Assembly: GCF_008087625.1 (NCBI RefSeq)
Contig: NZ_CP042997.1
Location: 4,402,001 to 4,466,000 of the forward strand
DNA: 64,000 bases
Reading direction: 5' to 3'
From: Aquisphaera giovannonii
GTDB lineage: Bacteria > Planctomycetota > Planctomycetia > Isosphaerales > Isosphaeraceae
In this document: piece after piece, positions 2,578 to 45,357 of the stretch
Position numbering within the stretch: position 1 is the stretch's first letter
Layout of the letters: each line of letters starts with the position of its first letter
The notes under the pieces: model-generated
Seen by the model: the letters and a program-made list of their open reading frames with translations, nothing else
Database searches by the model: none
Told to the model about the DNA's origin: nothing
Made by a program: the position numbers and the translations under genes

Positions 2578-5500
2578 ATGACGTCCCGCCCGAAGACTGC
2601 CGAGCCGTTCGAGAGCCTCACGGAGCTGCTGGGCTCGCGAGCGGCGGAAGGACCCGATCGGCCCCTCTTCTCGTTCCTGGCCGACGGCGACGGCGACGTC
2701 GCGGGGTCCGACCTCCCCGCCCTCAGCCGCGGCGAGCTGATGCTCCGCTCCCGGGCGCTGGCGGCGAGGCTGCAGGCGAAGGGCCTGGCCGGCTCGCGCG
2801 CGCTGCTCCTGTTCCCGCCGGGGCTCGAGTTCCTCGTCGGCTTCTTCGGCTGCCTCCACGCGGGCGTCGTGGCCGTTCCGGCCTACCCGCCCCGGCTCAA
2901 CCGCCCGATGACCCGCCTCCGCTCCATCGCCGCCGACGCCGAGCCCGCGGTCGTCCTGACCTGCGTCTCCCAGCGCGGGCTGATCGGCCGCTGGCGCGAG
3001 GGCGTACCCGAGCTGACCGCGCGCGAGTTCCTCATCACCGACGAGGGCCCCGGGGCGGGAGAGGTGGCGGACCTCGCCACCGGGTGGGAGGATCCCCGCG
3101 CCGGGCGCGACACCCTCGCCTTCCTCCAGTACACCTCCGGCTCCACGGCCGACCCCAAGGGGGTGATGATCACGCACGGGAACCTGCTGGCGAACTCGGC
3201 CCTGATCCGCGGCCTCTTCGCCGCGACCCAGGACGATCGGGGCGTCTTCTGGCTCCCGCTGTTCCACGACATGGGGCTGATCGGCGGAGTCCTCCAGACG
3301 CTCTACTGCGGCGGGAGCTCGACGCTGATGTCCCCGGTCTCGTTCCTCCAGCGGCCGCTCCGCTGGCTGGAGGCGATCTCCCGGACCGGCGCCGCGATCA
3401 GCGGCGGGCCGAATTTCGCGTACGATCTGTGCGTGGAGAAGACCACCCCGGGGCAGCGGGCCTCGCTCGACCTGAGCCGCTGGCGGATCGCCTTCAACGG
3501 GGCAGAGCCCGTCCGCGCCGAGACCCTGGACCGCTTCGCCGAGGCCTTCGCGCCGGCCGGCTTCCGCCGCGAGGCCTTCCTCCCCTGCTACGGCCTGGCG
3601 GAATCGACGCTCATGGTCGCCGGCCGCACGCTCGGCCCCGGCTGGTCGCCCGTCCTCGTCGACGCGGGCCAGCTCGACCGCGGCCTCGCGGCGGCGCCCG
3701 CGGGCGCCGCCCCGTCGCGGCTGCTCGTCGGCCACGGGGGACCTCTCGAGGACGCGGAGGTCGTCATCGCCGACCGCGAGACGGGCCTCCGCTGCGACGA
3801 AGGCCGCGTGGGGGAGATCCTCGTCTCCGGGCCGAGCGTCGCCCGGGGCTACTGGAATCGGCCCGGGGAGACGGCCTCGACCTTCGCCGCGACGGTGCCC
3901 GGCCTCGAGGGCCGGGCGTTCCTCCGCACCGGGGACCTCGGCTTTCTCCGCGACGGGGAGCTCGTCGTCACCGGCCGGATCAAGGACCTGATCATCCTCC
4001 GCGGCCGGAACCTGTACCCGCAGGACATCGAGCGGACCGTCGAGGGTTGCCACCCGTCGCTCCGCCCCGGCGGCTGCGCCGCGTTCTCCGCCGAGGTCGA
4101 GGGCGGCGAGCGTCTCGTCGTCGTCCAGGAGGTGGAGCGTCCCCGCCGGGGCGAGCCGTCCGACGAAGCCCTCGCCGCGATCCGCGCGGCGGTCGCCGAG
4201 CAGCACGACGTCGAGGTCCACTCGATCCGCCTCATCAAGCCCCTCGGCCTCCCCAGGACCTCGAGCGGCAAGGTCCAGCGACATGCCTGCCGCACGGCGT
4301 TCCTCGACGGTGGCCTGGAGGTGGTCGCGGCCTGGGATCGCGCGGCCGCGGGCCACGCCGCGACGGGGACGCCGGCGGAGCCGGTCGCGGAGGCGCCGCC
4401 CGCCGCCCGCTCGCGGCGGGAGATCGCGCGCTGGCTCGCGGAGCGGATCGCGCGGACCCTCGGCCTCGGGCCCGACGAGGTCGACCCGACCCGGCCGCTC
4501 GCGAGCTTCGGCCTGGGCTCCGTGGAGGCCGTCGGCCTCGCCGGGGACCTGGGCAGCCTGCTGGGGTGCCCCGTGTCCCCGCTCCTGGTCTATGACCATC
4601 CGACGATCGACGCGATCGCGGCTTTCCTGGGCGACGAGCCCGCGACGTCCCCCTCGGCCCGCGTGGAGCCCCCGCCCGTCGATCCGTCCCGCGAGCCGAT
4701 CGCGGTGATCGGCATCGGCTGCCGGTTCCCCGGCGCGGAGGGCCCGTCGGCCTTCTGGTCGCTCCTGGCCGAGGGGCGCGAGGCGATCGGCCACGTCCCG
4801 GCCTCGCGCCGGAGCGAGTCCGCCGCCGAGGCCCGGGGCATCCCCTCTCGCGGCGGCTTCCTGGACGACGTGGCGGGCTTCGACGCCGACTTCTTCGGCA
4901 TCGCCCCCCGCGAGGCGGCGCTCATCGACCCGCAGCACCGCCTGCTGCTGGAGGTCGCGTGGGAGGCCATGGAGGACGCGGGGCTCGTCCCGTCGAAGCT
5001 GGCCGGCTCGCGCGTCGGCGTGTTCGTGGGGGTCTCCACGAATGATTACGCCCAGATCCAATCGCGGCGGCGGTCCCGGGCCGACGCCTACCGCGTCACC
5101 GGCGGCGCGGGGAGCATCGCGGCCAACCGGCTCTCGTACGCCTTCGACTTCCGCGGCCCGAGCCTGGCCGTCGACACGGCCTGCTCGTCGTCGCTGGTGG
5201 CCGTGCACCTCGCCTGCAAGAGCCTGCGCGAGGGCGAGTCCACGCTGGCGCTGGCCGGCGGCGTGAACCTGATCCTCTCGCCCGAGGTCGCGGAGAACTT
5301 CGCCCGGCTCGGCTTCCTCTCGCCCGACGGCCGCTGCAAGGCGTTCGACGCAAGGGCGGACGGCTACGTCCGCGGCGAGGGGGCCGGCGTCGTCGTCCTC
5401 AAGCCGCTCTCGAGGGCCCTCGCCGACGGCGACCCGATCCTCGGCCTGATCCGCGGCGGCGCCGTGAACCAGGACGGCCGGACCAACGGCATCACGGCCC

Positions 5501-8500
5501 CCAGCGGCGCCGCGCAGGAGGCCGTCCTTCGCGACGCGTACCGCGACGCGGGCGTCTCGCCGGGCGACGTCGCGTACGTGGAGGCCCACGGCACCGGCAC
5601 GCTCCTGGGCGACCCGATCGAGGCGGCCGCCCTGGGCGCGGTGCTGGCCGAGGGCCGCCCCGCGGGCCTCCCCTGCGCGATCGGCTCGGTGAAGACGAAC
5701 GTCGGCCACCTGGAGGCGGCGGCGGGCGTCGCCGGCCTCATCAAGGCCGTCCTCTCGCTCCGGCATGGCCTCCTGCCGCCGAGCCTCAATTTCGACGAGC
5801 CGAACCCCTACATCCCGTTCGACGCCCTCGGCCTGCGCGTCCCCACCGCGCCCGAGCCCTTGCCGGCCGCCGACGGCGACGGCCCGGCGATCGTCGGCGT
5901 CAGCTCCTTCGGATTCGGCGGCACGAACGCCCATCTCGTCCTCGAGCGGTTCGCCGCCGCGCCCGGCGAGCCCCCGGCCGCCGATCCCGGGCCATTCCTC
6001 GTGCCGATCTCCGCGCGATCGGAGGAGTCGCTGCGGTCGCTCGCGAAAGCCGTCGGCGGGCGCCTCGCCGCTCCGGATGCGCCGGCCATAGCCGACGTGG
6101 CCGCGACGCTGGCGAACCGCCGCGAGCACCACGAGCATCGCGCGGCGATCGTGGCCGCGGACTGCGCGACGCTCCTCGACGGGATCGACGCCTTCCTGGC
6201 CGGCAAGAGCCGCCCCGGCGTCGCCTCGGGGCGACGCCCCGCGCACGGCCGCCCGCAGGTCGCGTTCGTGTTCTCGGGGCAGGGGGGCCTCTGGCCCGGA
6301 GTCGGCCGGGCGCTCGCGGAATCCGAGCCCGCGTTCCGCGAGGCGCTCGAGGCTTGCGACCACGCCCTCTCGCTGCACGGGGACCGCTCGCTGCACGCCG
6401 CCTTCTTCGGCCACGACGAGCCCCCCGCGACCGGCGACCCGGGATACGACCAGCCGCTCCAGTTCGCGATCCAGGTGGCGATCGCGGCGCTCTGGAAGTC
6501 GTGGGGGATCGAGCCGGACGTGGTCCTCGGCCACAGCGTGGGCGAAGTCGCCGCGGCGCACCTCGCCGGGATCCTGAGCCTGGACGACGCCGCGAGGATC
6601 ATCACCCATCGCGGGCGGTCGATGCGGCGGGCGGCGGGCCGGGGACGGATGCTCGCCGCGGCGATCGACGCCGCCGAGGCCCGCGAGCGGCTGGCCGGGC
6701 GGGGGGAGACGCTCTCGCTGGCCGCGATCAACGGCCCGAGGTCGGTGAGCATCTCCGGCGAGCCCGACGCGATCGCCGCCCTCGCCGCCGAGCTCCGCGC
6801 GGGGTCGCGGGCGGCCCGGGACGTGGACGTCTCGATCGCCTTCCACGGCCCCCAGATGGACGGCCCCCGCGCCGAGCTGGAGGCGGCCCTGTCCGGGCTG
6901 TCCCCGAGCCCCGGCGCCGTCCGCTTCGTCTCCACCGTCACCGGCGGCGAGCTCCGCGGCGACGAGCTCGACGCCCGCTACTGGGGCCGCAACGTCCGCG
7001 AGCCGGTCCTCTTCGAGCCGGCCCTCCGCGTCCTGGCGGCCGAGGGGTTCCGCGTCGCGCTGGAGGTCGGTGCGCACCCGATCCACGCCGCCGGCATCGC
7101 GGCGAGCCTCGGCGAGGGCGGGACGGGCCCCCGCCCCGTCGTCGTCGGCTCCCTCCGCCGCGGCGAGGACCGCCGGTCCACTCTGCTCGACGCCGCGGCC
7201 GCCCTCTACGCCGCGGGATGCGACCTCGACTGGGAGAGGCTCGCCCCGCGAGGCCGGCTCGTCCCGCTCCCGACGTACCCGTGGTCCCGGGCCGAATACT
7301 GGCTCGAGGACGAGCCGGAGCCGCCCGCGGCCGCCCCCTCGTCGAACGGGCACGCCACGAATGGGCACGGCTCCAACGGGCACGCGACGAACGGCCACGG
7401 CCGCCTCGCCGACATCGCGGCCGCAAACGGCCATGCCGCGGGAGGGGACGGGCCCACGCTCCTGCATCGCCTACTCTGGGAGCCGGCCCCGGATCGCGGG
7501 GCCGCCTCGCCGGACCTGGCCGGCCACTGGCGGATCCTCGGCCGGAGTGCGGGCGAGCTGGGCCGCCGCATCGAGGAAGCCGGCGGCACCTGGGAAGCCG
7601 GCGAGCTTCCCCGGCGGACGCGGCCCGATCTCGGCCTGCGGGGCGTGATCGACGCGAGGCCGCTCGACCTGGCCCCCGCGAGCGACCTGGCCTCCATCGA
7701 GGAAGGGCATCGCGTCATCCTGGGGGGGTTGCTCGAGGTCGTGCGCGAGATCGCGGCCATCGACGGCCCCGCGAGGCCGCGCCTCTGGATCGTCACGCGA
7801 GGCGCCCGGCGCGTCGTCGACGGGGATCCCGCGCCCGACCTCGTCCAGGCCCCGCTCTGGGGCTTCGGCCGTTCGCTGGCCCTGGAGTACCCCGAGGCCT
7901 GGGGCGGGCTCATCGACCTCGACCCGGCGGCGGGGGCCGATGTGGCGGACGCCATCGCGGCGGCCATCCGCGAGCCCGGCGGCGACGACGCCATCGCCGC
8001 CCGCGGCGGCCGGCACCACGCCGCCCGGCTGGAGCCGATCGACGCGTCCCCGACCGGCGCGGAGGGCCTGACGATCCGGCCATCCGGCACTTACCTGATC
8101 ACCGGCGGGCTCGGCGACCTCGGCCTCGCGGTCGCGCGGGACCTCGTCGCCCGGGGGGCGAGGCGGCTCGTCCTGCTGGGCCGCACGCCGTTGCCGCCGC
8201 GGGCGTCCTGGCAGGCGCTCGAGGCGGGCGACCCCTCGGCGCCTCGGGTCGCGGCGATCCGCGAGCTCGAGGATCGGGGCGCCACGGTCCTGACCGCCGC
8301 CGCGGACGCGGCGGATCGTCCGTCGATGGAAAGGCTCCTCGACGACCTGGCGAGGGCCTTCCCGCCGATCCGGGGCGTCATCCACGCGGCGGGCGTCGTC
8401 CGACCCCGCCCCGCGACCGAGATCGACGAGGCGGCCCTGGCGGAGACGCTCCGGCCCAAGGTCGCCGGCGGCTGGAACCTGCACGAGCTGACCGGGGGCC

Positions 8501-37842: not shown

Positions 37843-39411
37843 TTACCACGCTCGATTGCCGAAATGCCGACGCCGCAGCCGGCGGCTCGCCACGACCAGG
37901 CTCTGGAGCTTGTGCTGCGCGTCGTGGAATTTGCTGATGGGGCTGTCCGCGAAGGTGGCGAAGCCGCAGTCGGGATTGAGGAGGACGCGGTCGGGGCCGA
38001 AGAGGGCGATGGCCTTCTCGGCCCTGGGGATGATCTCCTCGGGCGTCTCGATGCGGTCCGTCTTCTGATCCACCACGCCGACGCCGATGCGGAGCGAATC
38101 GGGCAGCTCCCGGAGGACGTCGATCTCGCCGGCGCGGGGCGTGCAGAGCTCGAGGAAGAGGGTGCCGACGGGGATGCTCGAGAAGAGGCCGACGAGCGGC
38201 CGGTAATCGCCGGCCAGGGCGGCGGATTCGTCCCTCGTCCAGTTGCCGCGGCAGACGTGGAGCGCCAGGCGATCGCGGGGGAAGCCCGCGAAGACCTCGC
38301 CCAGGAGCCGGGTGGCCAGCTCGAGCTCCTCGCGCGGTGTTCGCTTCTCGCCGAGCGCGCCGCACATGAACGAGCGGTTGCCCGAGGCCCGGCGGCCGTG
38401 CACGACCTCCGTGAGCACCGGCTCGTCGAGCTGGACGAGGGCGGCCCCGGCGTCCAGCAGGTCGGCGACCTCCTCGCGGAGCACCCGGACGATGTCCGCG
38501 GCGAGCTCCTCCCGCTCGCGATAGACGCGGTCGGAGACGCACTCCAGCCACATCGTCCGCGTCAGGAGGTACGGGCCCGGGAGCGCGACCTTGAGGGGGT
38601 GATCGCCCATCGTGCGGGGGTAATCGAGCTCATGGCGTGCGAGCGGCCGGGCCGGGTCGCGGGCGATCCGCCCGAACACGGCGGGGTGCCGGACCGACTG
38701 CGCCGGGACGTCGAGCGCCGCCAGCTCGCGGGCGAATTCGTCGGGATGCTCGACGTAGGGGAGCAGGTCCACGATCGGGATGAGCTGGCAGTTGGCGAGC
38801 CGGCCGCCGACGAAGCTGGCGTAGCCGTCCCGCCGCTGCTCGCCGTCGGTGAACACGTCCACCCCGGCGCCGATCTGGGCGACGATCACCTCGGCCACCG
38901 CCCGATCGGCGAGGGCGTGGAAAGCCCGCTCCTCCATGCGTCCCTCGAGCCATTCGCGGAGCGCGATGAGCAGCCAGGCGGGGCGGGGCCAGCTCCCGAT
39001 GCCCATGACCGCGAGGGGCGGGATGGCGGGAGGTGCAGGCCTCGGCCCCCGCCGCTCGGGCGGGGCGGCCTCGCGCGGGGCGCCCGGCACGCCGGCGGGC
39101 TCCCTCGCGGGGGGTGCCTTCGACCCCGGTGTGAACGGCCCCTTCGAGATCAGGAAGATCCAGCCGGCCCTCGCGGGGTCGCGCCCGGCGGAGACCAGCT
39201 CGTTGCCGGTCATCCGGCACCAGGACGGCAGGTCCTCGGACACCGATGGCTCGGTCGAGCGGAGCTCCAGGAGCTGGCCGTGCCCGAGCGGGTCGATGCG
39301 GCGGCGGATCTGGAGGAGCAGGCCGCTGCCGCAGTCCATGTCGCCGCCGTCGAACCGATCGGCCGGCTCGAGGGCAGGGGGGCCGTCCTTGTCGCGATTC
39401 GCGTCGCTCAT
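37843..39411 (-). CDS. TusA-like domain fused to core MetE-like methyltransferase
   Basis: A 522-residue fusion. Residues about 20-90 are TusA-like: DMDCGSGLLLQIR keeps the acceptor cysteine but has CGSG for the usual CPxP, followed by GQLLELRSTEPSV and LPSWCRMTGNEL. A Pro/Arg-rich linker (about 90-130) leads to a domain of about 390 residues matching the C-terminal catalytic half of cobalamin-independent methionine synthase. The four zinc ligands are present: His385 and Cys387 (LHVCRGN), Glu421 (LFLELC) and Cys482 (NPDCGF), with the LDEPVL motif. The folate-binding N-terminal half of full MetE is absent, as in core-MetE proteins, which use other methyl donors. Its operon partners are DsrE-like and TusA-like, so a thiol or persulfide acceptor is plausible; the true substrate is unknown. 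Confidence 0.85.
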   Translation of the reverse strand: MSDANRDKDGPPALEPADRFDGGDMDCGSGLLLQIRRRIDPLGHGQLLELRSTEPSVSEDLPSWCRMTGNELVSAGRDPARAGWIFLISKGPFTPGSKAPPAREPAGVPGAPREAAPPERRGPRPAPPAIPPLAVMGIGSWPRPAWLLIALREWLEGRMEERAFHALADRAVAEVIVAQIGAGVDVFTDGEQRRDGYASFVGGRLANCQLIPIVDLLPYVEHPDEFARELAALDVPAQSVRHPAVFGRIARDPARPLARHELDYPRTMGDHPLKVALPGPYLLTRTMWLECVSDRVYREREELAADIVRVLREEVADLLDAGAALVQLDEPVLTEVVHGRRASGNRSFMCGALGEKRTPREELELATRLLGEVFAGFPRDRLALHVCRGNWTRDESAALAGDYRPLVGLFSSIPVGTLFLELCTPRAGEIDVLRELPDSLRIGVGVVDQKTDRIETPEEIIPRAEKAIALFGPDRVLLNPDCGFATFADSPISKFHDAQHKLQSLVVASRRLRRRHFGNRAW

Positions 39412-39432
39412 GGGCGTCTCGCCTCGGGCCCC

Positions 39433-39795
39433 TCAGTAGCTGACGCAGGCTGCCCCCTGGGAGAGGAACTCGACGAGGCGGGCCCCGCCCACGATCGTCG
39501 CCCCGGGGACGAGTTTGGTGGCGTCCAGGTCCCGCTTCTTGAAGCAAGGGGAGCAGACGAGGATGGTCCCGCCGGCCTGGACGAAGCTCGTCATCAGCTC
39601 CTTCAGGGGCTGGAAGCCGGGCTCGTGGACCTCGTCGGCCACGCCCGCGACGGCCAGGCGCACGCCCTCCACGCTGAGGAAGACCATGGTCTCCTGGCCC
39701 GAGGCCACCGCCGCATTCGCCACCACGAAGGCCACGGTCGCGCGGTCGGTGTCATCGGTCGATCGGGTCAGCGAGACGCAGAATTTGCCGGCCAT
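39433..39795 (-). CDS. DsrE-family protein
   Basis: A 120-residue protein of the DsrE/DsrF-like fold: an N-terminal strand and helix (TRSTDDTDRATVAFVVANAA), a middle segment ETMVFLSVEGVRLA, and a conserved cysteine near residue 83 in ILVCSPCFKKR. DsrE-type proteins pass sulfane sulfur in relay with TusA. It lies 6 nt after the small TusA-like gene and 21 nt before the TusA-MetE fusion, all on the minus strand, which fits one operon. The acceptor of the sulfur is not known. Confidence 0.85.
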   Translation of the reverse strand: MAGKFCVSLTRSTDDTDRATVAFVVANAAVASGQETMVFLSVEGVRLAVAGVADEVHEPGFQPLKELMTSFVQAGGTILVCSPCFKKRDLDATKLVPGATIVGGARLVEFLSQGAACVSY

Positions 39796-39801
39796 GGGCG
39801 A

Positions 39802-40032
39802 TCAGTCCTTCCGTCGTTCGAGGTGATAGATCGGATGCGCGGCGAGCACCAGCCGATGGCCGGTGAGCCGGCACCAGGCGGGGACGTCCACGGGTGCCCC
39901 CTCGTCCCGGGTCGTCAGCCGGAAGACCCGGCCGGGGGCCAGCCGCTCCAGGCGGGCCCGCAGGGCCAGGAGCATCGGCCCGCAGGCCAGGTCTCCAGCG
40001 TCCCACGCTTCGTCAGCCGGATCGCCGTCCAA
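39802..40032 (-). CDS. Small TusA-like sulfur carrier
   Basis: A 76-residue protein aligned with the TusA domain of the fusion encoded two genes downstream: DLACGPMLLALRARLERLAPG, then DVPAWCRLTGHRLVL. The acceptor cysteine is in CGPM, so the CPxP motif is changed here too, while the second conserved cysteine (WCR) is kept. The start is a TTG at 40032, chosen because it gives the usual domain length; there is no clear ribosome binding site and the start is uncertain. It is the first gene of the sulfur-relay operon. Confidence 0.75.
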   Translation of the reverse strand: MDGDPADEAWDAGDLACGPMLLALRARLERLAPGRVFRLTTRDEGAPVDVPAWCRLTGHRLVLAAHPIYHLERRKD

Positions 40033-40535: not shown

Positions 40536-41090
40536 ATGAACTCTCGCTTTGTTCGTCTTCTGCGGGATACCTCGGCGGTCGCCGCGGCGATCCTCCTGGG
40601 CGCGGTGGTGTGCCCCGGCTGCGGCGATCCCTCGGTCGGCTCGCCCGCCACGCGGCTCGCCGGGCGGATCACCTACAACGGCCGGGCCGTGAAGAACCAT
40701 GTGCTCATCTTCACCCCGGAAGGTGAGAACAAGGAGGACTGGGCCTATGCGATCACCGACGGGGAGGGGAAGTTCCTGGTCTTCGCCTCCGCCCGGGCCG
40801 GCGACATGATGCCCGGGGTCTACCGGATCGCGCTGAGGAAGGACGGCCTCGTCGCACCCGATAACGGCGCGATGAAGGACAGGCGGGCGGCGTGGCGGGG
40901 CGGCGAGCTGCCCGGCCGCTTCTACGACGCCGACCACTCGGGCATCTGGACGAAGCTGGAGCGCAGCGCGTGCTGGATCAGGATCGACCTCCGGGACGAG
41001 TCCGAATCCGGCTCTGCCGAGCGCGAGACCGATCTGAGCCGGGCGGGACGCGGGCTGCCGCCGCGTGACACTCCCGGCGGAGTCACCTGA
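40536..41090 (+). CDS. Small exported beta-sandwich protein, paralog 1
   Basis: A 184-residue protein with a hydrophobic signal (AVAAAILLGAVVCPGCG); the second cysteine aligns with the lipidation cysteine of paralog 3, though the residue three before it is Cys and not Leu. The body has the pattern GRITYNGRAVKNHVLIF, then AITDGEGKF, PGVYRIAL and RFYDADHSGIW, ending in WIRIDLRD. This matches the transthyretin/carboxypeptidase-regulatory-like folds common in planctomycete surface proteins. Compared with the other two paralogs it has a C-terminal extension of about 25 charged residues. Function unknown. Confidence 0.78.
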   Translation: MNSRFVRLLRDTSAVAAAILLGAVVCPGCGDPSVGSPATRLAGRITYNGRAVKNHVLIFTPEGENKEDWAYAITDGEGKFLVFASARAGDMMPGVYRIALRKDGLVAPDNGAMKDRRAAWRGGELPGRFYDADHSGIWTKLERSACWIRIDLRDESESGSAERETDLSRAGRGLPPRDTPGGVT

Positions 41091-41207
41091 GCAGACGGCG
41101 GCGTGGGACGGAAGCGACAGACAGCGAGGGCGTTGCGGCGGCGGCGGTGTCCCGAACCCCGGACCGAGATGGCGGATTGCTCGCCTCCTGCCGGGAGGTC
41201 GAACTAC

Positions 41208-41236
41208 TTGACCCGTTGTCGGGATCTGCGTAGGGT
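41208..41236 (+). promoter_or_regulatory. Promoter 2 of the exported-paralog array
   Basis: A -35 box TTGACC (41208-41213), a 17-nt spacer and a -10 box TAGGGT (41231-41236). The start codon lies about 290 nt downstream. Confidence 0.62.
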
Positions 41237-41526
41237 TCAGGGAGGTCTTGTGTCGGTATCCGGGACGGTGGGCGAGTAGGTTCGGGAGGGGGCGGTTCGC
41301 CCTCCTCCGTCTCGTCTCGCCGCATCCCTGATCACGGTCGGGTCGCCCTCATCCATGCCGGTTCGAGGATCGCGGGGAGGCCAACGTCCCCCGCGGCCGG
41401 CCGCCGCCCCAGCCGTGGAATCCCTCGATCCTGACGGAGAGCCCGGCGGATGCCGGTGCATTCCCGCTCGTTCCTCCCGGGCGGGCTCGCGGCGGCATTT
41501 CCCCAGACCGGGCGGGAGGAAGACGC
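41237..41526 (+). promoter_or_regulatory. Long 5' leader 2
   Basis: About 290 non-coding bases with several GC-rich self-complementary stretches. It shares the GGTGCATTCCCGCTCG block and the CGGGAGGAAGACGC end with the other leaders. Confidence 0.5.
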
Positions 41527-41994
41527 ATGAGAGGCGGTCATTCCCGCTCCCTCCTCGTGGCCGCGTTCCTTGTGGCCGGTGCGGCCATCGCGGCTATTCA
41601 GGTCGGGCCGCGCTGGTCGCAGGGCACGCCCCAATTTTCCGGCCAGGTCACCTACAATGGGCGGCCGCTGAAGGACCAGATGATCGTCTTCGTCGCCCGG
41701 GATCTCAAGAGCGACAACTGGGGCTTCGCCTGCACCGACGGGGATGGCAGGTTTTCGGTCTCGGCCACGCTGGGCGAGAGGCGCCTGGCCCCCGGGACCT
41801 ACCGGATCTTCTTCCGCAAGCCGGGCCAGTCCCGTGTCATCCGGTACCGGGGCGGCTCGGAGCGGGTGGACATGACCGCGACGGCCGCGCTCCCCGATCG
41901 GTTCTACGATGCCGATCAATCGGGCCTCTGGGCGAAGATGGGCCCGACCGCCCGCTGGATCCGGATCGATCTGCGCGACGGCCCTCACGCCTGA
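41527..41994 (+). CDS. Small exported beta-sandwich protein, paralog 2
   Basis: A 155-residue paralog of the genes on either side. It has an N-terminal hydrophobic segment (SLLVAAFLVAGAAIAAI) without a cysteine, so unlike paralog 3 it is not a lipoprotein and may stay anchored or be cleaved. The body reads FSGQVTYNGRPLKDQMIVF, then CTDGDGRFSVSA, APGTYRIFF, RFYDADQSGLW and WIRIDLRDG. Start, leader and ribosome binding site match paralog 1 closely. Function unknown. Confidence 0.8.
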   Translation: MRGGHSRSLLVAAFLVAGAAIAAIQVGPRWSQGTPQFSGQVTYNGRPLKDQMIVFVARDLKSDNWGFACTDGDGRFSVSATLGERRLAPGTYRIFFRKPGQSRVIRYRGGSERVDMTATAALPDRFYDADQSGLWAKMGPTARWIRIDLRDGPHA

Positions 41995-42223
41995 ACTCTG
42001 CGTCCGGTCGCGGCCCCGCCCCGGATGCCCCGCGGGCCGAAGGTCCCGCGAGTCGCGGTCGGCCCCGACGGGCGCTTCCTTCGTCCCCGCGATCCGACGC
42101 GTCCCCTCGGGATCGCTCGTGCGGCCGATGCCTCGACCCTCCCCGCACGGCGGGCCAGCGGTGCGACGGGACCCGCACGTCCGAAAAACGACACCTCCGA
42201 CCGCCGTCGGCCTCGTGGACGGC

Positions 42224-42252
42224 TTGATCCGCGGGCCGCCCGCCCATAGGGT
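42224..42252 (+). promoter_or_regulatory. Promoter 3 of the exported-paralog array
   Basis: A -35 box TTGATC (42224-42229), a 17-nt spacer and a -10 box TAGGGT (42247-42252), identical in spacing to the other two. The start codon lies about 308 nt downstream. Confidence 0.6.
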
Positions 42253-42559
42253 TTAGGAGGAGTTCTCGAGAGGGCCCGGAGCCGGCGGTCCGTGGCTCGC
42301 CGACGTTTCAGGCGGGAGTCCGCCCCTGCGGAATTCGGGCGGCATCGACTCGCAGGCGGCTCGCCACCCACTCGGTTCGAGGCTCCAGGGCGGGGTGAAG
42401 TCCGAAATTCTTCGTGGAGTCCCCTCGCGGATGAGGCGACGTTAATTTACGATCCAGAGGAATGGCCCGTCTGATCTCGGTGCATCCCGGCTCGCTCGCG
42501 TCGATCGAGCGGACGCACGACGGCACCTCTCCCAGGTCGGGCGGGCGGGAGAAAGACGC
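42253..42559 (+). promoter_or_regulatory. Long 5' leader 3
   Basis: About 307 non-coding bases. It has a less GC-rich middle (about 42405-42460), the shared GGTGCATCCCGGCTCG block and a CGGGAGAAAGACGC end before the ATG. Confidence 0.5.
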
Positions 42560-43021
42560 ATGAGATGCCGTTCCCTTCGCGGCTCCGTCGGCGCGATGCT
42601 CCTGGGGCTCCTGGCCCTCCCCGGGTGCGGGTCGTCGCAGGCGGATTCGGGGCCGCAGCAGCTCACCGGCCGCGTTACCTACAACGGCCGGGCCCTGACG
42701 AACCAGTCGATCGTCTTCGCCCCCAGGGAAGACCTGGACACCAACTGGGGCTTCGCCGTCACCGACGACGGGGGCAACTTCTCGGTCTCCCCCGTTGCAC
42801 GCCTGAACAAGCTGACGGCCGGGATCTACAACATCTACTTCGACAGGCCGGCCAGCACCCCCCGGTTCGACGACGGCCAGAGGCGGAAGCAGCAACCCGC
42901 CGCGCCGGCCGTCGAACTCCCGGATCGCTTCTACCACGCCAACCAGTCTGGCCTCTGGGCGCGGGTGGAGCGGGGCTCACGCTGGATCCAGATCGACCTC
43001 CGGGACGGGCCCAAGGCCTGA
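42560..43021 (+). CDS. Small exported lipoprotein, paralog 3
   Basis: A 153-residue protein with a good lipoprotein signal (LLGLLALPGC, lipidation at the Cys). The body aligns with paralogs 1 and 2: TGRVTYNGRALTNQSIVF, then VTDDGGNFSV, TAGIYNIYF, RFYHANQSGLW and WIQIDLRDG. A short Gln/Lys/Arg-rich insertion (about 115-125) is its own. It is followed by a strong terminator hairpin. Function unknown. Confidence 0.82.
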   Translation: MRCRSLRGSVGAMLLGLLALPGCGSSQADSGPQQLTGRVTYNGRALTNQSIVFAPREDLDTNWGFAVTDDGGNFSVSPVARLNKLTAGIYNIYFDRPASTPRFDDGQRRKQQPAAPAVELPDRFYHANQSGLWARVERGSRWIQIDLRDGPKA

Positions 43022-43142: not shown

Positions 43143-44720
43143 TCACTGGCAGGACAGGCAGGTGGGGACGACCACCGGGACCGGCGTGCACTGCTGGACG
43201 GCGACCGTGCGGGCCACCTGTCGGGCGACCACCCGGTTGACCGTGACGGGCACCTGCTCCGCCACGCAGACCGGCACCTGCCGAGAGGCCGTCTCGGAGA
43301 CCATCCGGCAGGTCCGGACGGGCACCTTCTCGACGCGCTCCTCGGCGACGTAGTTGCAGGTCGTCACCTGGTAGGGCTCCGAGCGCTCCTCGGCGACCAT
43401 CTGGCAGGTCTGCACCTCGTAAGGCTCCACCCGCTCCTCGGCGACGTAGCTGCACGTGGTGACCGGGATGGTCTCCACCTTCTCCTCGGCGACCATCTCG
43501 CAGGTGCGGACCTGGTAGGGCTCCACCCGCTCCTCGGCGACGTAGTTGCAGGTCGTCACCTGGTAGGGCTCCGAACGCTCCTCGGCGACCATCTGGCAGG
43601 TCTGCACCTGGTAGGGCTCCACGCGCTCCTCCGCCACGTACCGGCAGGTGGTCACCTGGTAAGGCTCGACCCGCTCCTCGGCGACGTACCGGCAGCGCGT
43701 GACGGGCACCTGGCGGACCATCGTCTCGCGGACGTAGGTCGTCTCGGTGACGTCGCGGGTCACGGGCCGGGAGACGAAGACCCGCTGGCTGACGACCCGC
43801 GGCGGGCACTGCACGGCGACCGTGGCGGTGACCTTCCTCTTGCACTTCAGGCATCCGAAGAGGCCTCGACGAGGCTCCCCGCCGCAGGCGTCACACTCCT
43901 CCACCGGCACCCGCACCTGACGCTCGACGACCGGCCCGGGGATCGTGGTGTATTGCCGCTCGTAGTAGCCGCACTCCACCGTCTCCTGGCGGACCGTCGT
44001 GACGGGGCGGCAGACCGTGTAGGGCTGCTCCACCATCGACGTCTCGGTCACCGGCTTCATCACGGTGTAGCGGCGCTCGCGGCTCTCGGTCTGGTAGACC
44101 GGCCGCTGCACCGTGTAGCGGCGCTCGCGGTTCTCGGTCTGGTAGACCGGCTTCATCACGGTGTAGCGGCGCTCGCGGTTCTCGGTCTGATAGACCGGCC
44201 GCTGCACCGTGTAACGGCGCTCCATCTGCTGCGTCTTGACGACGGGCCTCATCACGGTGTAGCGGCGCTCGGTGTTCACCGTCTTGTAGACGGGCCGCTG
44301 CACGGTGTAGCGGCGCTCGCGCCGTTCCGTCTGGTAGACCGGCTTCATCACGGTGTAGCGGCGCTCGCGGTTCTCGGTCTGGTAGACCGGGCGCTGCACC
44401 GTGTATTTCCGCTCGACGAACGACGTCTCGTACACCGGCCGCTGGACGGTGTAGTTCTCGGTCTGATATCCGGTGCGGTAGCGGGTCTCCATCACCGTGG
44501 TCGGGACGGTCTCGTACACCGTCTCGTAGACCGTCTGATACACGGTCTCCACCTGGGGTGCCAGGGGCACGACCGTGAGTTGCGTGGCCACCACGGAGGA
44601 GGGCGCACAACGGTGGCAGGCGCCGCCGCCGTACGTCGCCCAGGCCGGCGGGGCCGGGCCGCCCAGCAGGGCCGCGGCCGCCGCCGCGGCGAGGCTCACC
44701 ATTCTCAAGGACCTGAACAT
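43143..44720 (-). CDS. YTV-repeat protein with a second cysteine-containing repeat array
   Basis: A 525-residue exported protein; the ATG at 44720 has a GGAG ribosome binding site and begins a signal peptide (MFRSLRMVSLAAAAAAALL), whereas the longest open frame starts 47 codons earlier with no signal. The N-terminal half is about ten copies of a 16-residue unit of the form RERRYTVMKPVYQTEN, the YTV repeat first described in planctomycetes. A CDACGG...CLKCKRK zinc-ribbon-like segment follows. The C-terminal half is eight or nine copies of a 17-residue unit (CxxVAEERVEPYQVxT) with one cysteine per unit. The protein ends in PTCLSCQ. The regular beta-prone repeats suggest an extended cell-surface fibre, with cysteines able to crosslink. 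Function unknown. Confidence 0.88.
   Translation of the reverse strand: MFRSLRMVSLAAAAAAALLGGPAPPAWATYGGGACHRCAPSSVVATQLTVVPLAPQVETVYQTVYETVYETVPTTVMETRYRTGYQTENYTVQRPVYETSFVERKYTVQRPVYQTENRERRYTVMKPVYQTERRERRYTVQRPVYKTVNTERRYTVMRPVVKTQQMERRYTVQRPVYQTENRERRYTVMKPVYQTENRERRYTVQRPVYQTESRERRYTVMKPVTETSMVEQPYTVCRPVTTVRQETVECGYYERQYTTIPGPVVERQVRVPVEECDACGGEPRRGLFGCLKCKRKVTATVAVQCPPRVVSQRVFVSRPVTRDVTETTYVRETMVRQVPVTRCRYVAEERVEPYQVTTCRYVAEERVEPYQVQTCQMVAEERSEPYQVTTCNYVAEERVEPYQVRTCEMVAEEKVETIPVTTCSYVAEERVEPYEVQTCQMVAEERSEPYQVTTCNYVAEERVEKVPVRTCRMVSETASRQVPVCVAEQVPVTVNRVVARQVARTVAVQQCTPVPVVVPTCLSCQ
43300..43710 (-). repeat. 51-bp tandem repeats (cysteine/AEER units)
   Basis: Eight or nine head-to-tail copies of a 51-bp unit encoding one CxxVAEERxEPYQV unit each. 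Adjacent copies are nearly identical at DNA level, so slippage or recombination could change copy number. Confidence 0.85.
44040..44460 (-). repeat. 48-bp tandem repeats (YTV units)
   Basis: About nine copies of a 48-bp unit that encodes ERRYTV with alternating MKPVYQT and QRPVYQT endings, so the higher-order period is 96 bp. Several copies are identical or differ at one or two bases. Confidence 0.85.
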
Positions 44721-45357
44721 ACGATACTCCTCGGCGGATCCCCGGGCATCCCTGTCGCGATTCGCCAGTTCTTGGGTCATCTCGCACGGCCCGAAGGAGT
44801 GCTCAGTCTCGTCCCTGAGAAGGCCCTCCGCATGACGGCTACGGAATCCTCGATTCAACACGGCCCACGCTGCACAGAGCGAGTCCCGACCGCGGGAGTA
44901 TCCCAGGGGCTGGCGGCGGCCGATCGACCGGCACGCGGAGGGCTATCCCCCTCCAGCCGGACCACACAATCGCCACAACCCCTCCCGCCGGACGAAACAA
45001 GCAACCCACCGCGCAATTGCACCAAATCACACTCAAGCGGCCCCGCGAGATCGGTCGATGACAACACGATGGACCCCGCGGTGAGGCCTCCAGTGCAGTA
45101 TATCACCGGCCGAAATATTCCCCGCCGGAATCTCGCAGTTTTCCTGGAGTGCCGGGTCATCTTGTGCCGATCACAACAGGTTGATTCCGCAGGGCCGTCC
45201 GCGCCGCGATCTTGTCCCACCGCACAACGCGCGCCGGCCCGCGCCGGCCGCCCGGGACGCGGCCTCCCGGAAGCGACACAACGCCAGTCGAATCCTCAAC
45301 ATCGAGGAGTGTGGCAGGACCGGCCCGGCCCTCAAATGCAGCACATTCCCCGCCGCG
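44721..45357. other. Intergenic region upstream of the YTV-repeat gene
   Basis: About 637 bases with no supported gene. The stretch around 45000-45190 is lower in GC than the rest and probably holds the minus-strand promoter. A GC-rich partial palindrome lies near 45225-45255. Open frames here lack domains and ribosome binding sites. Confidence 0.5.

Follow-up and report, generated by a model that had tools for sequence, protein, structure and literature searches.

A conserved TusA-DsrE-MetE cassette with links to selenium and with probable selenoprotein members

Aquisphaera giovannonii is a planctomycete whose genome (10.5 Mb, three contigs, 99.9% complete) carries a minus-strand operon that joins chalcogen carriers to a methyltransferase core. 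The operon lies within the 64,000-nucleotide stretch of DNA analyzed here (the window; NZ_CP042997.1, positions 4,402,001 to 4,466,000) and encodes a stand-alone TusA-like protein (TusA1), a DsrE-family protein, and a fusion of a second TusA-like domain (TusA2) with a MetE-type catalytic core (Table 1). Gaps of 6 bases separate TusA1 from DsrE and 21 bases DsrE from the fusion. TusA and DsrE proteins are classical sulfur carriers; in the window, the CPxP motif is missing from both TusA parts, which have CGPM and CGSG where it is expected. A preliminary description of this DNA had proposed a sulfur-to-methyl pathway. The link to selenium reported below, which emerges from sequence comparisons, is new and goes beyond that observation. 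On sequence evidence, we consider it well supported that the operon is part of a carrier-methyltransferase system linked to selenium and that this system includes a probable, as yet unlisted, selenoprotein family.

Table 1. Features of the TusA-DsrE-MetE operon, in window positions
Feature	Positions	Strand	Evidence and residues
TusA1, stand-alone TusA-like carrier, 76 aa	39802..40032	-	Pfam TusA, 34.3 bits (cut-off 28.6); conserved C17, C54
DsrE-family carrier, 120 aa, CSPC motif (C81, C84)	39433..39795	-	Pfam DsrE, 56.7 bits (cut-off 22.7)
TusA2-MetE core fusion, 522 aa	37843..39411	-	Pfam Meth_synt_2 and TusA; structure model; PDB fold matches
TusA2 domain of the fusion, residues ~18-91	39139..39360	-	Pfam TusA, 27.4 bits at residues 32-90, just below the cut-off of 28.6
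C27 codon of TusA2	39331-39333	-	C27 in 58 of 59 fusions
MetE-type catalytic core, residues ~131-518; H385, C387, E421, C482	37858..39021	-	Meth_synt_2, 91 bits (cut-off 21)
C350 codon (TGC) of the fusion	38362..38364	-	Invariant Cys; TGA in five other genomes

Scanning named genomes, we recovered 67 loci, some of which are near-copies, so they do not amount to 67 independent cases. They come from planctomycetes, Rhodocyclus, Massilia, Gallionellaceae, Binatota, Chloroflexi, Armatimonadetes, and others. The order TusA1, DsrE, and fusion (or split MetE) was found in 50 of the 67. Eight have DsrE and the fusion only (seven titled Binatota and one titled Desulfurellaceae yet nearly identical to them), eight have the MetE part alone (at least four of these start at a contig end), and one has TusA1 and DsrE with another enzyme, a radical S-adenosylmethionine (SAM) protein. 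At the 58 loci where it could be measured, the gap between DsrE and the fusion has a median of 21.5 bases. Conservation was counted with loci L002-L004 left out as fragments or paralogues from the window's genome. TusA1 keeps C17 in 52/52 and C54 in 51/52 sequences, and DsrE keeps C81 and C84 in 60/60 proteins. All 59 full fusions have the zinc ligands H385, C387, E421, and C482, as well as D329, C291, and C350; E191, S140, C208, and C27 are each present in 58. These data bear out what the preliminary description had noted in the window: three tightly spaced genes, which proved to be a conserved set and no random neighborhood, all four zinc ligands of MetE, and TusA parts that retain the acceptor cysteine and have lost CPxP. 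The cassette appears rare among the class relatives of Rhodocyclus, since a DsrE profile matched only 2 of 185, one being Rhodocyclus itself and the other a weak match. Within the window's own phylum, a profile of 17 fusions identified 37 carriers among 244 genomes, 11 with the fusion (divided between two contigs in G129) and 26 whose core has no fused TusA; G085, a weak match (E value of 5.9e-66) with no TusA or DsrE found adjoining, was retained.

When the alignments were read on through stops, five genomes, which represent three phyla, proved to have a TGA codon precisely at the C350 position: one of Bacteroidales (L070/G254), two of the phylum of Desulfocapsa (L129/G743 and L134/G253), and two planctomycetes (L118/G042 and L119/G155). 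Similarity continues past the TGA at all five loci. Over 98 distinct motif-matched sites, the C350 codon is TGC in 68, TGT in 25, and TGA in 5; gene ends aside, the only other stop inside an aligned core is a TAG in the metagenome sequence L008. There, at about position 7488, a Binatota fusion has the TAG in frame at the residue aligned to R298, by sequencing error or in a broken gene. We disregarded seeming TGA codons located ahead of residue 130 in the fusion alignment; the simplest explanation is that they terminate the upstream gene. Among the five genomes with TGA at C350, SelB scored over the cut-off in G042, G155, G254, and G743 and was not found in G253 (2.5 Mb). A quick tree of 94 cores requires two changes for its four TGA rows, and its strongly supported branches allow a single origin. 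An in-frame TGA at an otherwise invariant cysteine in five genomes points to selenocysteine (Sec) at this position and suggests that the MetE-core family probably contains selenoproteins not yet listed.

In four lineages, ~8 kb or less separates the cassette, or its core, from selA, selB, or the tRNA-Sec gene. A replicon of Paracoccus ferrooxidans carries, in order, a cysteine desulfurase gene (on the opposite strand), TusA, DsrE, two hypothetical genes, the fusion, selA, and trxB; selB is found ~8 kb upstream and tRNA-Sec ~8 kb downstream. This Paracoccus locus (L106) also includes a UGSC-type selenoprotein candidate (5499-6068), in which an in-frame TGA precedes GSC and which is annotated as two hypothetical genes. 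Paracoccus versutus has near-identical genes, with no selB in the shorter stretch examined. In the planctomycete locus L061, selB, selA, and tRNA-Sec are upstream of the operon; in two Chloroflexi loci (L052/L053), selB is ~4 kb upstream; and in two planctomycetes of one genus (G193 and G106, family f24), selB and the MetE core are no more than 8 kb apart. For the flanks of the 67 loci, which total 605,535 bases, 0.12 selB genes are expected if each 5-Mb genome has one, versus two lineages seen (L061; L052/L053; rough p of ~0.007); the Paracoccus and f24 cases came from other searches and do not enter this figure. ARAGORN placed tRNA-Sec near L061 and L106 only, among the 59 loci given to it, and an Rfam scan of 10 loci returned only tRNAs at the gathering score.

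Carriers of the cassette also tend to have the Sec trait. Among the planctomycetes, selD is present in 34/37 carriers versus 132/207 noncarriers (Fisher p of 2.7e-4) and SelB in 36/37 carriers, and all 37 have one or the other: SelB is present in the three carriers that lack selD (G155, G174, and G207), and selD in the single carrier that lacks SelB (G214). The window's genome has both, and its SelD gene contains a TGA in a CAG-TGA-AGK context. Across phyla, SelB exceeded the cut-off in 29/36 genomes of one set and 41/43 of a second, overlapping set in which some genomes recur under two handles (e.g., G252 and G083, with identical SelB coordinates). Betaproteobacterial carriers, tested with loci L011, L013, and L065 left out, have SelB in five of eight cases versus 6/184 other genomes of the class of Rhodocyclus (p of 1.2e-5); all eight are presumably members of that GTDB class. 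A shared lifestyle, with certain habitats rich in both the cassette and the Sec trait, would be consistent with the patchy spread of the fusion over phyla, as if by transfer, and with the nonindependence of relatives. It would account neither for physical linkage in four lineages, with flanking selB in two lineages against the 0.12 expected, nor for the exchange of Cys and TGA at C350, and we regard it as highly improbable.

The cassette occurs in several other arrangements. We took regions around the core from 18 of the 26 unfused planctomycete carriers; in 13, DsrE and a TusA2-OsmC protein are found near the MetE core, and 12 of these also have TusA1, in variable order. This four-part cassette (TusA1, DsrE, TusA2-OsmC, and a separate MetE core) is present in Desulfocapsa (L069) and Bacteroidales (L070) as well. 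Five genomes of planctomycete family f24 (G020, G106, G166, G176, and G193) have a core with no TusA or DsrE beside it; their cores adjoin an OsmC-like gene, a substrate-binding-protein (SBP)-like protein related to Rv1680 (NF049985), and an acyl-coenzyme A (CoA)-dehydrogenase-like protein related to Rv1679 (NF049984). One protein of each kind was scored, and both fell below the cut-offs of these families. The cassette is complete in G042, also of f24, and in the fusion carrier L009, relatives of the Rv1680-like SBP and Rv1679-like acyl-CoA-dehydrogenase proteins are encoded downstream. In the radical SAM variant, from Nocardioidaceae (L071), TusA1 and DsrE are followed by a TusA2-radical SAM fusion of the Rv1681 family (5669-6775; 353 bits versus a cut-off of 380). 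A DoxD-like gene lies upstream of these genes in L071. The Rv1679/Rv1680-like genes beside some MetE cores tie an uncharacterized mycobacterial gene trio, Rv1679-Rv1680-Rv1681 (NF049984, NF049985, and NF049973), to the neighborhood of the cassette, as does the TusA2-radical SAM protein after TusA1-DsrE; the Rv1681-type protein differs in that radical SAM replaces MetE, and all three Rv-family scores are under the family cut-offs.

What the core does can be approached through its fold. A structure model of the fusion (mean predicted local distance difference test score of 79.7; predicted template modeling score of 0.74) matched MetE structures best by E value in a PDB search, and among the matches listed, the highest template modeling scores by target length (0.81-0.83) belong to MesD (3rpd) and the Listeria core MetE (1ypx). 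The motifs with the homocysteine-binding residues (GS motif, Glu, and Asp; S140, E191, and D329 in the fusion) align to MesD and Thermotoga maritima MetE. In the model, C350 is located between short strands 346-349 and 352-355, after the barrel strand that ends at D329, and MesD has a gap in this stretch of the alignment; the Cys/Sec residue looks like part of an inserted hairpin. Against NCBIfam, the best match of the fusion was NF003317, with 143 bits versus a cut-off of 406, and its scores were far below the cut-offs of the methionine synthase models that it matched. In MetE, homocysteine bound on zinc attacks the methyl group (PMC7857596). The cassette core shares the MetE catalytic fold without the folate domain, and the zinc and homocysteine residues, with the core methionine synthases MesA-MesD described in the same paper, but differs in being fused to or placed beside TusA/DsrE, in its extra invariant cysteines, including C350, and in its linkage to Sec genes. 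MesX (DUF1852) was not noticed near the cassette in gene lists read by eye, for which no dedicated search was made.

Could the core simply be a methionine synthase? The window's genome has a full-length MetH. It also has a second core MetE-like gene (L112; G000:C1:2143609-2144655; 386 aa; Meth_synt_2; 28% identity to the fusion core), which is the only Meth_synt_1 match in that genome. MetH was matched in 18/20 genomes tested from several phyla, 16 of them over the curated cut-off and one of the 20 being the radical SAM variant. At an E value of 1e-100, it was found in 32/37 planctomycete carriers versus 152/207 noncarriers, and there is thus no sign that the cassette generally replaces MetH; as a general reading, plain replacement of MetH or MetE is rejected on these counts. 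Since most carriers also have MetH, plain methionine synthesis, which the preliminary description had named as the outcome that would speak against its proposal, is a poor fit. A variant of this idea makes the core a further MesA-D-like methionine synthase that uses another methyl donor, with the carriers regulating or activating the enzyme. Its intact zinc and homocysteine residues, its nearest folds (MetE, MesD, and the Listeria core MetE), the metY/metX/metW neighbors in Binatota, and the five planctomycete carriers without a MetH match at this threshold (G063, G071, G108, G129, and G187) agree with such a role. The prevalence of MetH argues against it, and TusA/DsrE, Sec350, and the Sec-gene link would be left unexplained, so that we judge it quite unlikely. 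Three of the five carriers without MetH at 1e-100 are family f41 planctomycetes (L086, L087, and L099, from G108, G187, and G063, respectively), and the core could therefore be the methionine synthase of these three.

We tentatively propose that the cassette may be a selenium-supply module, which would move the methyl group of methylated selenium to homocysteine and pass the freed selenium to SelD. The mechanism that we consider best, demethylation of methyl-selenium with homocysteine as the acceptor, is suggested by the absent folate half, the carrier domain fused to the core, and the extra Cys/Sec at 350. A methylated selenium group (methylselenol, dimethyl diselenide, or methylseleninate) would form a mixed selenenyl sulfide with C350/Sec350 or with TusA2 C27, and in this bound state the methyl-selenium would take up the position at which MetE encounters methyl-folate. 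Homocysteine on the zinc would accept the methyl group and depart as methionine; because the methyl group leaves in this way, neither a corrinoid nor folate would be needed. The selenium remaining on the carrier would be passed from TusA2 to DsrE, TusA1, and finally SelD, so that both methyl and selenium would be recovered. In its more specific form, which we hold a little more cautiously still, the proposal is of a corrinoid-free selenium demethylase, itself a selenoprotein in some lineages, whose TusA/DsrE relay to selenophosphate synthesis would give many bacteria a route from methylated selenium to Sec. From the preliminary description, the idea of a carrier-bound chalcogen in MetE-type methyl transfer remains the best one, with two revisions: the chalcogen would be selenium, and the carrier-bound group would probably be the methyl donor, not the acceptor. 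No result points to its other suggestions, a carrier-bound thiol as the ultimate recipient of the methyl group (the homocysteine site is intact) or sulfur insertion linked to methyl transfer.

Accessory genes at some loci fit the demethylation mechanism. In Massilia (L022, 3562-5958), a PhnCDE-type importer, PhnD-PhnE-PhnC, is encoded between DsrE and the fusion, with PhnD (TIGR01098) and PhnE (TIGR01097) over the cut-off; methylseleninate resembles methylphosphonate. L020 carries relatives of all three importer proteins. The Paracoccus locus includes the thioredoxin reductase gene, and in Binatota, the DsrE-fusion pair adjoins homocysteine-making metX/metY together with metW (over the cut-off for L018, with relatives in seven further loci).

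Several observations weigh against selenium supply by this route. The five f24 cores without adjoining TusA/DsrE are left unexplained by a relay. Seven of 36 genomes lack SelB over the cut-off, among them that of the radical SAM variant and the TGA-form genome G253. The association with the Sec trait across genomes is correlative, relatives are not independent, and the p values are uncorrected for kinship. A Sec insertion sequence (SECIS) filter, with rules from PMC13188914, passed 4/5 TGA genes but also 64/92 Cys genes and is therefore uninformative on how TGA is read; we dropped it as proof that TGA encodes Sec, the filter being nondiscriminating. An Rfam search of three loci for SECIS elements found none.

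Sulfur substrates or the reverse direction are possible alternatives. With sulfur, the cassette would salvage methyl-sulfur, turning methanethiol or a carrier-bound methyl persulfide into methionine and a persulfide for sulfur metabolism, and the selenium link would be secondary. TusA and DsrE are sulfur-carrier families, the metY/metX/metW linkage in Binatota agrees with such a pathway, and a non-selenium branch of the Mlp clusters has been proposed to act on methyl-sulfur (PMC10418091). The association with Sec genes holds, though, even for forms with only Cys at C350, and the linkage to selA, selB, and tRNA-Sec likewise speaks for selenium, making salvage of sulfur rather unlikely. In the opposite direction, carrier-bound selenium would be methylated and released as volatile methylselenol in a detoxification pathway. 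The carriers, the selenium link, and the methyl chemistry are compatible with either direction. The methyl group would then need to be drawn from methionine by way of the homocysteine site, a transfer that is energetically poor, and the link is to Sec synthesis genes; we find detoxification very unlikely. Finally, TusA/DsrE may relay selenium to SelD with no methyl transfer, the core having some other zinc-thiol role, such as redox chemistry at C350/Sec350. TGA at C350 suggests redox chemistry, and YedF, a TusA-DsrE protein, is linked to SelD (PMC5322559). A nonmethyl role would not need the conserved MetE substrate residues, however, and we assign this possibility a low probability.

The demethylation reading has precedents. 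Methyl-selenide methyltransferases of the UroD superfamily act with corrinoid proteins in methanogens and clostridia (PMC10418091; Niess and Klein 2004, as cited in PMC11097638), and their clusters tend to co-occur with the Sec trait (PMC10418091). These SdmABC or type 1 mlp clusters resemble the cassette in their UroD-superfamily methyltransferases, their tie to the Sec trait, and the proposed release of selenium from methyl-selenium with recycling of the methyl group. They differ in depending on corrinoid proteins plus an activase, in place of a MetE-type core with sulfur/selenium carriers, and they have been reported from anaerobes alone (PMC10418091 and PMC11097638). No corrinoid protein or activase genes were noticed beside the cassette in gene lists read by eye, for which no profile search was made. 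When Methanococcus maripaludis is depleted of selenium, transcripts of TusA/TusD and SdmABC-like transcripts increase together; the authors read the Tus response as tRNA thiolation and found it unexplained (PMC11097638). YedF (TIGR03527) likewise ties TusA and DsrE domains to SelD-type selenium metabolism (PMC5322559) but is one protein with CPxP and CGxC, in contrast to the separate proteins with CGPM/CGSG and CSPC, plus MetE, of the cassette; TIGR03527 was absent from the NCBIfam matches of the window's genes at E values of up to 1.

Within the open-licence literature, we found no publication on the TusA-DsrE-MetE set, the TusA/DsrE/OsmC set, or a core MetE with a sulfur carrier. Among the open-licence papers listed, titles and the beginnings of abstracts show none on a selenoprotein with cobalamin-independent methionine synthase, only the related PMC10418091. 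A search for selenoprotein, TusA, methyltransferase, and selenophosphate synthetase together, since 2018, returned only PMC11097638 from the same literature. Term searches of PMC9312934 and PMC5029168 found no mention of MetE, and that of a 2026 review found none of methionine synthase, MetE, or PF01717 (PMC13188914).

Elsewhere in the window, three similar small proteins with a common TYNGR motif are encoded in tandem on the plus strand (40536-43018, starting at 40536, 41527, and 42560), with no Pfam match for any of them, and are followed at 43143-44861 by a 572-aa protein made up mostly of repeated YTVxRPVYQTE-type units. No Rfam family, riboswitches included, was matched in the window at the gathering score.

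How bacteria acquire selenium for selenoproteins is poorly known, and the cassette bears on that question. According to the 2026 review, a specific high-affinity system for selenium transport is yet to be identified in prokaryotes, and the route from selenomethionine to Sec is open (PMC13188914); a 2016 review that deals mainly with animals states that specific pathways of methylselenol demethylation have not been identified (PMC5187540). SAM methylates selenide spontaneously (PMC3511371), and cells that make Sec may therefore lose selenium unless they are able to demethylate it. The operon supplies candidate genes for selenium demethylation outside corrinoid-using anaerobes and may add a MetE-type family to the selenoproteins.

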